Position numbers and translations under genes: made by a program
Origin: Anaerocaecibacter muris
Lineage (GTDB): Bacteria > Bacillota > Clostridia > Christensenellales > Pumilibacteraceae
DNA length: 64,000 bases
Reading direction: 5' to 3'
Assembly (NCBI RefSeq): GCF_943192945.1
Contig: NZ_CALPCE010000005.1
Span: forward strand, 1-64,000
The notes under the pieces: generated by a model
The model's input: the letters and a program-made list of their open reading frames with translations, nothing else
Database searches by the model: none
What the model was told of the DNA's origin: nothing
Part shown: positions 28,690 to 31,852 of the stretch, piece after piece
Numbering within the stretch: the stretch's first letter is position 1
How the letters are laid out: each line of letters begins with the position of its first letter

Positions 28690-29742
28690 GTGAGCGCTAC
28701 CGTAAGAATAAAAAATATACAGATAGGCGGCGGCAACAGAATAGCCGTTCAGTCTATGACCAATACCGACACTCTCGACACGCAAGCGACGGCGGATCAG
28801 TTAAAGCGGTTGCAACTCGCGGGGTGCGACATTGCGCGCATTGCCGTGTCGAGCGAGGCGGAAGTAAACGCGTGCGCGGCGTATATCGGCAAGTTCGATA
28901 TGCCGCTTGTCGCCGACATTCAGTTCGATTACCGTCTTGCCGTCAAGTGCGCCGAAATAGGCTTTGATAAAATTCGGTTCAACCCCGGGAATATCGGCGA
29001 CGAAAGCAAAGTCAAATATACCGTTGACGCTTGCAAGGCGCACGGCACGCCCATCAGGATAGGCGTTAATACGGGTTCGCTCGAAAAAGAGTTTTCGGGC
29101 ATGAGTAAAAGCGACGCGCTTGTTGCGAGTGCGTTGAAGCATGTGCGCTTGCTCGAAAAGTTCGGGTTTTACGACATTGTTATTTCGGTCAAGTCGTCGG
29201 ACGTAAAGACCACCGTTGACGCATACAGACAGCTTGCGGCAAAAACCGATTACGCTCTGCACATCGGCGTTACGGAAAGCGGCGCGGATGAACGCGGCGT
29301 TGTGCGCTCGGCAATCGGCATAGGCGCGCTGTTGATTGACGGAATAGGCGATACCGTGCGCGTGTCGTTATCGGGCGATCCCGTAAAAGAGGTTGCGGCG
29401 GCGCGGCTTATTTTGCAGGAAGCGGGCTTGGACAAAGATTATTGCGAAATTATTTCGTGCCCCACGTGCTCGCGGTGTAAGTACGACTTGAAGTCCGCCG
29501 TGGACGAACTGAAAGCCGCGACCAAGGACATTAAAAAGCGCGTCAAGATTGCCGTAATGGGTTGCGTGGTCAACGGACCGGGGGAAGCCTCCGATGCGGA
29601 CTTCGGCGTTGCAGGCGGCGCGAGCGGAAAAGCCGCGCTGTTCGAGCGGGGCAAGGTTATAGGCACGATAGACGTTGCGGACATAGTCCCTACGCTTTTG
29701 AAAATGATTAACGACAAGATAGCCGACGACGGGAATAATTGA
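28690..29742 (+). CDS. ispG: 4-hydroxy-3-methylbut-2-en-1-yl diphosphate synthase
   Basis: An iron-sulfur enzyme of the MEP pathway, 350 residues. It has QSMTNTDTLDTQAT, ADIQFDYRLA, NPGNIG, and the cluster ligands in SCPTCSRCKYD and VMGCVVNGPGEA. The GTG start has no SD site; the promoter placement suggests leaderless translation. It sits between rseP and the polC locus, a common Clostridia arrangement. Confidence 0.96.
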   Translation: MSATVRIKNIQIGGGNRIAVQSMTNTDTLDTQATADQLKRLQLAGCDIARIAVSSEAEVNACAAYIGKFDMPLVADIQFDYRLAVKCAEIGFDKIRFNPGNIGDESKVKYTVDACKAHGTPIRIGVNTGSLEKEFSGMSKSDALVASALKHVRLLEKFGFYDIVISVKSSDVKTTVDAYRQLAAKTDYALHIGVTESGADERGVVRSAIGIGALLIDGIGDTVRVSLSGDPVKEVAAARLILQEAGLDKDYCEIISCPTCSRCKYDLKSAVDELKAATKDIKKRVKIAVMGCVVNGPGEASDADFGVAGGASGKAALFERGKVIGTIDVADIVPTLLKMINDKIADDGNN

Positions 29743-29745
29743 CAA

Positions 29746-31245
29746 ATGAACGAAATTTATAAAAAAATAAACGAAAGAACGGGCGGCAAGTACGAAAAAC
29801 TGCGGTTCCCGCGAGTGGCGTTCGAGGGCGGCAGCGCGGTTGTAACCGTTGCGTGCAAGCCCGACGACGTTGCTTTTGCCAATGCAAATAAGCTCGAATT
29901 GCTTGAACTGTTGCGCACGGAGTGCGCGTTTCATACGCCTATAAAAATAACAGTTGACGGCGCGACGCCGACTGTTTCGTCGTTGCGTACGGCGGTTGTC
30001 AAGTTTACGGAGAAGTTTGCTTACGTGTCGTCCGTAATACATACGATAGCGGCGCAGACCGAGCCGCAGCTTGTCGTGTCCATAAAAATGCACAAGGCTA
30101 TGTACGAGCTTGCGCAAAACGATTATATCCCGCGGCTCGAGGAGTTTTTAAAAAATTCTTACGCAGATGAGGTGCGACTGGACGTGACTGCTGTCGAGTA
30201 TGCGCAAAGCGGATCGAATTATGCCGCGAGCGCGTCGAGCGGCGGCAAGTCGGAATATGCAATTACGGACGTAAAGCCGGTGCTCGGCAGTCTTGCGCCC
30301 GCGACGGCGAAGTCCGTTTCGAGTATTATCGCAAACGAATACAATGTCGTTGTCTGCGGCGTGTTTGCCATGCCTACGGAGTTTACGAGCAAGGGCGGGC
30401 GAAAGTACGAGCGGTTTTTGCTGTACGACGGCGAAACATCGTTACAGTGTCGGTTCAGTCCGAGCGGCGGCGTAAGTCTTGCCGATCCGACGCTCCTCAA
30501 TAAGACGGTGTGCGTTTTGGGCAATGCCGAATACGACGCATATCGCAACGAAGCGTCCGTATCGGTAAGGGAGCTGTCCGTGTGCAATGCGGACGGGCTT
30601 TGTCCGATAGCGCCCGTACCCGCGCCCGCCGAATACGACAGGGTAAAACCTCAACCTTACAACGAATACGTACAGTCGAGCATGTTCGACGGCGGGTTTG
30701 AATTGCCGCCCGCACTGAAAGGCGATTTTGTTGTTTTCGACTTTGAAACGACGGGACTGTCCGTGTTGTACGATCGTCCGACGGAACTGGGCGCGGTAAA
30801 AATTTCGGACGGAAAAATAACCGATACATTTTCCACGCTTATCGATCCGCGCCGACCTATCCCCGAAGAAGTGTCCGTTAAAACGGGCATAACGGACGAC
30901 ATGGTAAAAGGACAACCGCTGTTCGAGGACGTGTTGCCCGATTTTTACAAGTTTTCTTACGGCTGTTCGTTCGTGTGTCACAACATATCGTTCGATTTTC
31001 CGTTCCTGCTTAAAGGCGGGAATAGGTGCAACCTTGCGTTCGGCGACAGGCGCACTTACGACACTATGGCGATTGCGCCGCTCGCGCTTGCGGGCATACA
31101 AAAGCTGTCGCTCGACAAAGTTCTCGAAGGGCTGGGGCTTGTAAACGACAATGCGCACCGCGCTGTGACCGACGCGGCGGCAACAGCCAAAGCGTTTATA
31201 GCAATGCACCGAATTTTGGCTGATAAAAAGCGCGGAGATAAATAA
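29746..31245 (+). CDS. polymerase-less PolC: N-terminal domains, OB fold and DEDDh exonuclease only
   Basis: At the normal polC position (between ispG and rimP) the frame codes only 499 residues, against about 1,400 for PolC. Residues about 1-150 resemble the two N-terminal PolC domains, about 190-290 an OB fold, and about 325-495 the proofreading exonuclease. The exonuclease residues are complete: D332 and E334 in FDFETTG, HNISFD with D417, and H471/D476 in HRAVTDA. The PHP domain that normally surrounds the exonuclease and the whole polymerase (palm, thumb, fingers) are absent. The frame is clean and followed at once by the rimP promoter. It may be a functional 3'-5' exonuclease, or a remnant with the replicative polymerase elsewhere. 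Confidence 0.85.
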   Translation: MNEIYKKINERTGGKYEKLRFPRVAFEGGSAVVTVACKPDDVAFANANKLELLELLRTECAFHTPIKITVDGATPTVSSLRTAVVKFTEKFAYVSSVIHTIAAQTEPQLVVSIKMHKAMYELAQNDYIPRLEEFLKNSYADEVRLDVTAVEYAQSGSNYAASASSGGKSEYAITDVKPVLGSLAPATAKSVSSIIANEYNVVVCGVFAMPTEFTSKGGRKYERFLLYDGETSLQCRFSPSGGVSLADPTLLNKTVCVLGNAEYDAYRNEASVSVRELSVCNADGLCPIAPVPAPAEYDRVKPQPYNEYVQSSMFDGGFELPPALKGDFVVFDFETTGLSVLYDRPTELGAVKISDGKITDTFSTLIDPRRPIPEEVSVKTGITDDMVKGQPLFEDVLPDFYKFSYGCSFVCHNISFDFPFLLKGGNRCNLAFGDRRTYDTMAIAPLALAGIQKLSLDKVLEGLGLVNDNAHRAVTDAAATAKAFIAMHRILADKKRGDK

Positions 31246-31319: not shown

Positions 31320-31396
31320 GGTACTATAAGGTTTAGCATGAGAGTGGGTTGTCAGCCCGCTCTCAATTGCTGTTACGGAGGTTTGCTATTAACAGC
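31320..31396 (+). promoter_or_regulatory. structured leader of rimP
   Basis: Two hairpins. The first, 31340-31364, pairs GAGAG with CTCTC and GGG with CCC through a G-T pair; similar leader hairpins open many Bacillota rimP-nusA operons. The second pairs GCTGTTA (31369-31375) with TAACAGC (31390-31396), placing the SD site GGAGG (31377-31381) in the loop and the presumed start codon at the base of the stem, which could regulate translation. Confidence 0.55.
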
Positions 31397-31852
31397 GTTA
31401 TAGAAAAGGCAATGCCTATCATAGAGGACGTTGTCACCGCGCTCGGTTACGAGCTTGTGGACGTAGAATATAAGACGTTGTACGGCGACAAACATCTTAT
31501 AGTGTACATCGCAAGCGAAAAGGGCGTAAGCCTCGACGATTGCGAAACGGTATCCAACGCTTTGGACGCGCCGCTCGACGCGCTCGACCCCACTTCGTCC
31601 ATGCCGTATTGCTTGGACGTGTCCTCGCCGGGGCTTGACAGACCGTTCAAGTCGCAGCGCGATTACGAACGCAATTACGGGAGTAAAGTGGAAGTCAAGC
31701 TGTTCGCGCCGATAGACGGTTCCAAGCAAAAGCTGTACGTCGGCACGCTTGTCGAGCGCACGGACAGCGCGGTCACGATAGAAACGGACGGCGTAAACAC
31801 GTCAATCGAAAACGGCAAAATCGCGCTTGTCAGACCGTATATCGAGTTCTGA
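31388..31852 (+). CDS. rimP: ribosome maturation factor RimP
   Basis: RimP helps assemble the 30S subunit. The 154-residue product has PIIEDVVTALGYELVDVEY and the conserved LDVSSPGLDRPF. There is no ATG, GTG or TTG at the position expected from family length; the codon with ideal spacing (six bases) from GGAGG is ATT at 31388, the rare initiator used by infC in many bacteria. A downstream ATG at 31412 is the alternative and would remove the first helix. It heads the nusA-infB operon as usual. Confidence 0.88.
   Translation: MNSVIEKAMPIIEDVVTALGYELVDVEYKTLYGDKHLIVYIASEKGVSLDDCETVSNALDAPLDALDPTSSMPYCLDVSSPGLDRPFKSQRDYERNYGSKVEVKLFAPIDGSKQKLYVGTLVERTDSAVTIETDGVNTSIENGKIALVRPYIEF

Follow-up and report, generated by a model that had tools for sequence, protein, structure and literature searches.

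The polC locus of Anaerocaecibacter muris raises a question. Why should a gene that encodes no polymerase persist in the slot of a replicative one? The window analysed here is a stretch of 64,000 nucleotides, and the gene in question lies at 29746..31245 on the forward strand. It starts with ATG and encodes 499 amino acids. The flanking genes ispG (28690..29742) and rimP (31349..31852) are on the same strand and are identified as kept neighbours by synteny. The open reading frame starts 4 nt past ispG, and 103 nt separate its end from rimP. Hence, this short form of PolC fills exactly the polC slot, ispG-X-rimP. A preliminary description had reported a PolC-like N-terminus, an OB fold and an intact DEDDh exonuclease with no PHP or polymerase part, and hhalign, Pfam and synteny confirm each of these features. 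The PHP domain of full PolC is interrupted by the exonuclease. Neither PHP half was found in this frame, using Pfam or alignments with full PolC, so there is no PHP domain with an inserted exonuclease. The C-family polymerase core and HhH part are also absent, since the protein stops after the exonuclease. As had been argued, this is not a simple 3' truncation; the first PHP half has been lost besides the 3' part.

The remaining parts, all on the forward strand, follow the order seen in PolC. N-terminal subdomains I (29746..29961, residues 1-72) and II (29974..30195, residues 77-150) are KH-like alpha/beta regions, assigned by homology to the PolC N-terminus and by an AlphaFold2 model. Next is the OB fold (30253..30597, residues 170-284), which is all-beta in the model. 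The short-form family profile matched the OB of PolC 3f2b, and 20 of 24 family members matched the Pfam tRNA_anti-codon OB. In profile-profile comparison (hhalign), the first ~300 columns matched the PolC N-terminus with 98.9-99.7% probability. A linker (30598..30720) replaces the first PHP half in alignments with full PolC. The DEDDh 3'-5' exonuclease domain (30721..31236, residues 326-497) then completes the protein, with a Pfam RNase_T match at residues 329-484 of 499. The catalytic residues D332, E334, D417, H471 and D476, at just the positions given in the preliminary description, are invariant in an alignment of 24 diverse relatives. In the AlphaFold2 model (mean pLDDT 86.8), two alpha/beta subdomains and the OB region are followed by a loose linker, which leads into the exonuclease. 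Confidence is lowest around residues 311-320, within the linker. The best fold match of the predicted structure is full PolC 9qpc. The PDB entry 9qpc was also matched twice, by the N-terminal/OB part and by the exonuclease.

The exonuclease itself is, by profile score, of PolC type. With the family profile, PolC exonucleases scored 208 bits (2p1j, the best among all DEDDh structures) and 179 bits, compared with 138 for DinG, 124 for DnaQ and 108 for epsilon. Could a foreign DEDDh domain nonetheless have been fused to the PolC N-terminal and OB parts, replacing the original exonuclease? The linker ahead of the exonuclease is new and has a clamp-type motif. Furthermore, an unrooted and weakly supported exonuclease tree has PolC on one side of the short forms and DnaQ-like domains on the other. 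However, PolC exonucleases stand ~70 bits above any other solved DEDDh family, and the top NCBIfam matches are PolC models, although by just a few bits for the window protein. We regard a domain swap as quite improbable.

If PolC polymerase has been lost, replication must rest on another enzyme, and this had been suggested from the window sequence. The only C-family polymerase in the genome (1.97 Mb, 95.7% complete) is a DnaE of ~1,196 aa, encoded elsewhere, on contig C9. No second PolC was found by profile search, where PF07733 matched DnaE only. Hence, replication must rest on this protein. It has the PDxDxD motif of the polymerase, a full set of PHP metal-site residues and an internal clamp motif of its own; judged by sequence, these are the features expected of DnaE1. 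The possibility that DnaE1 has a broken PHP site, and so needs an external proofreader, was ruled out because all 41 genomes checked have the complete site. Apart from the short form, RNase_T matched just one protein of the A. muris genome, a divergent DEDDh-like protein of 344 aa (L043:1285-2319, contig C6). A separate DnaQ-like protein (~200 aa), present in most genomes of the genus, was not detected.

The same arrangement recurs across the order. PolC polymerase was present in 12 of 61 genomes and absent from 49. The short form was found in 47 of these 49, a count that includes a fragment in G021 and a copy in G052. The latter was found only with a family-specific query; the family-wide BLAST had matched an unrelated DEDDh protein. 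The two genomes with neither protein are just 78% and 67% complete. In a second set, none of 30 short-form genomes (28 of them new) had PolC polymerase, which was present in all 10 full-PolC genomes. In total, ~75 short-form genomes lack PolC polymerase, and almost every one has a single DnaE1 whose PHP site is intact. A sample of 111 genomes of the order gave 61 short-form matches, plus 5 more via a family-specific query. The exonuclease lay within a frame of >1,200 aa in 35, and the remainder were broken or undetected. By family, the short form occurs in ~15, full PolC in ~14 and both in none; no genome has the two together. Among 118 genomes of the class, full-length short-form matches were confined to this order. 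In other orders, the exonuclease was found in PolC-sized frames or in separate DEDDh proteins.

The short form is kept even in genomes of 0.8-1.1 Mb. Five genomes of one family (G064, G098, G147, G234 and G245; f26) measure 0.8-0.9 Mb and are rated 98-100% complete, unusually small for Clostridia. Several other genomes were unusual. G042 (f7; 3.2 Mb, 51% complete) gave 7 PF07733 matches and so may encode several DnaE-type polymerases or be a mixed bin. Seven genomes of full-PolC families (G185, G186, G194, G232, G235, G239 and G250) gave no exonuclease match at threshold and possibly encode exonuclease-less PolCs. One full-length PolC (L080:7024-11391; G048, f13) has an internal DEDDh domain in which catalytic residues are lost (FSLRTTG in place of FDxETTG). 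In another full PolC (L078:6774-10760; G046, f11), the first catalytic Asp is altered (FYIETTG) and the N-terminal region is shortened.

Both forms occupy position X in the order frr-uppS-cdsA-dxr-rseP-ispG-X-rimP-nusA-infB, barring local rearrangements. In a 12-gene marker tree, one change between the two states suffices (100% SH-aLRT support). In the DnaE tree, full-PolC genomes form one group, which the short-form genome G055 adjoins at 88%. Other orders of the class have full PolC. Together with the trees, this makes a single origin by loss the most likely history of the short form. Full PolCs of G046 and G058 were suspected as intermediates without the N-terminal PHP half because their exonuclease starts early. 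This was rejected; both have that half, and it is their N-terminal domains that are shorter.

Pairwise dN/dS within the genus was 0.09-0.20, alike in both halves of the protein, and that of the exonuclease was equal to or below that of the N-terminal part. These values indicate that the short form is under selection in the polC slot. A dying remnant or an assembly artefact is scarcely credible. A broken frame was seen in one sister genome (L018 in G003; 130 contigs, 84% complete), the sole such copy in the genus. Against this stand clean frames in dozens of genomes, the dN/dS values, synteny and retention in reduced genomes. Low dN/dS and conservation rule out decay, which was not evident in sister genomes. 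Because dozens of independent genomes have the short gene at this operon position, chance and an assembly error are excluded; hence, the concern that two contigs had been wrongly joined here did not hold.

How might the short form reach the replication fork? In the linker, the pentapeptide QSSMF (30673..30687, forward strand, residues 310-314) is a candidate beta-clamp-binding motif. A strict Q-x-x-[LM]-F is found in the linkers of 52 of 71 short forms, 19-26 residues ahead of the first catalytic Asp. A relaxed motif is at the conserved place in 66 of 71; one additional relaxed match, in L153, was spurious. The motif arose in 0.9% of shuffled linkers, but related sequences are not independent, so the counts are a statement of conservation and carry no p-value. 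In some short forms the motif is weak or missing, for example in G041 and G035. In the G041 protein (L067, f6), the DEDDh site is intact but no clamp-type motif can be recognised; the sister of G041 in the DnaE tree is f17, a family itself without catalytic residues. All of 11 full PolCs checked lack the motif at the linker position, and most have a C-terminal QxSLF instead. Conversely, the short forms, the window protein included, lack a C-terminal clamp-binding motif of PolC type. QxxLF is the published clamp-binding consensus (PMC12309361), and in the window protein the pentapeptide lies in an exposed segment, the low-confidence linker of the model. We infer from the sequence that this is a clamp-binding-type motif, and predict docking to DnaN.

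Clamp-type motifs also occur in repair proteins (PMC12309361), and many DEDDh relatives are repair or RNA nucleases. Accordingly, the short form could be an exonuclease that the clamp recruits to repair (mismatch repair, recombination or end processing) and not a proofreader of replication. However, it descends directly from a replicative polymerase and has kept the DNA-binding N-terminal domains. We consider a repair role unlikely.

Three lineages complicate a purely catalytic role. All or nearly all DEDDh positions are changed in f20 (7/7 genomes), f17 (7/7) and G026, a member of the window's own family, making 15 genomes altogether. These pseudo-exonucleases are 485-548 aa long and adjoin ispG wherever checked. 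The clamp-type motif is also weakened in f20 and f17. In pairs from these two families, similarity in the dead domain is about equal to that in the N-terminal part; the domain is thus still maintained. That the protein was kept after catalysis was lost argues that it has a second function, independent of catalysis. The preliminary description had proposed that proofreading was separated from the replicase. The polymerase is indeed gone and the DEDDh site intact; conversely, DnaE1 has a complete PHP site (41/41), so a second proofreader is not required, and three lineages lack the DEDDh residues.

These observations could mean that the short form is mainly a structural accessory. The N-terminal and OB parts would bind the clamp, DNA or DnaE1 and couple parts of the replisome, while the nuclease would be of lesser importance and could be dispensed with, given proofreading by the PHP site of DnaE1. 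The full-length pseudo-exonucleases at the locus, the conservation of their dead domains in f20 and f17, and the intact DnaE1 PHP all favour this. Set against it are the five catalytic residues invariant in 24 diverse members and a dN/dS for the exonuclease no higher than for the N-terminal part. A mainly structural role is thus a tentative, somewhat unlikely alternative.

The best explanation, which we think on balance slightly favoured, is that the short form is an accessory exonuclease, tethered to the clamp and acting in trans with DnaE1, with a non-catalytic role in addition. The ancestor of the clade most likely lost the PHP, polymerase and HhH parts, with the N-terminal, OB and exonuclease domains retained in place as a free-standing protein. 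The sequence data themselves establish the origin and domain layout of the short form, its conservation, the selection on it, the presence of the motif and a background with DnaE1 only; clamp binding, proofreading in trans and a structural role are what we infer. The short form would dock to the sliding clamp through Q-x-x-[LM]-F of the linker, and its OB and N-terminal parts would bind primer-template or single strands. The DEDDh domain may then trim, in trans, mispaired 3' ends left by DnaE1. The N-terminal domains, OB fold and clamp docking would also fill a non-catalytic role at the fork, and this would explain why three lineages retain the protein after losing the catalytic residues. In those lineages, the intact DnaE1 PHP site may have made DEDDh activity dispensable. 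There may be a simple path to this state. If exonuclease action in trans was what already made PolC useful in an ancestral cell with a capable DnaE1, the polymerase could then be lost, and the remainder kept and re-tethered to the clamp. The family-wide distribution, single origin, clamp-type motif and pseudo-exonuclease lineages extend the preliminary description.

In these cells, a classic replication enzyme appears to have been taken apart, leaving an accessory part. In their main text, surveys of C-family polymerases list DnaE1-only, PolC + DnaE1 and PolC + DnaE3 sets, exonuclease-less PolCs and some Clostridia with DnaE1 alone (PMC3919608, PMC12926913). A stand-alone protein of the present type was not found in the searched main text of these two broad surveys (PMC3919608, PMC12926913). 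According to the same text, both used complete genomes; the short-form clade consists mostly of uncultured gut bacteria. The openly accessible literature searched yielded no description. The data are about evenly balanced on whether this is a fourth bacterial replicative set. Such a set would pair DnaE1, as sole replicase, with a clamp-docked protein that arose once by dismantling of PolC and that is, in some lineages, a purely structural pseudo-exonuclease at the fork.

The findings bear on the question of why Clostridia keep two replicases, a PolC + DnaE1 system described as experimentally uncharacterised in the main text of one survey (PMC3919608). Removal of PolC polymerase in one lineage implies that DnaE1 alone can replicate such genomes. 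That part of PolC is under strong selection points to N-terminal and exonuclease functions separable from synthesis. Hence, the clade offers a natural setting in which to test proofreading in trans, how PHP and DEDDh sites share the work of proofreading, and what role the poorly understood PolC N-terminal domain plays. Drugs that inhibit PolC polymerase should also find no target in short-form bacteria.

The closest known system is PolC itself (NF001688, TIGR01405; 9qpc, 3f2b, 2p1j), which shares the locus, the domain order and, by profile score, the nearest exonuclease. The short form differs in lacking either PHP half, the polymerase core, HhH and the C-terminal clamp motif, and in placing its clamp-type motif between OB fold and exonuclease. 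DnaQ/epsilon of E. coli Pol III, which binds the PHP domain of DnaE and proofreads, resembles the short form: it too is a DEDDh protein of its own that accompanies a DnaE1 polymerase, and a clamp-type motif adjoins its exonuclease. However, epsilon binds the clamp via QTSMAF, which follows the exonuclease (PMC3642679), whereas the short-form motif precedes it. Furthermore, the short form ends with its exonuclease, with no C-terminal alpha-binding tail, has a large N-terminal and OB part and is not of the dnaQ lineage. A precedent for action in trans comes from B. subtilis, where DnaE and PolC form a physical complex and the PolC exonuclease removes errors made by DnaE (PMC5627055). The short form may likewise serve DnaE1, but the B. 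subtilis exonuclease lies within a complete, essential PolC (PMC5627055). Finally, polymerase-less PolX-like proteins, as presented in the main text of PMC12926913, are also polymerase relatives that lost the polymerase and kept a nuclease, although the polymerase family (X), the nuclease (PHP) and the setting (repair) all differ.
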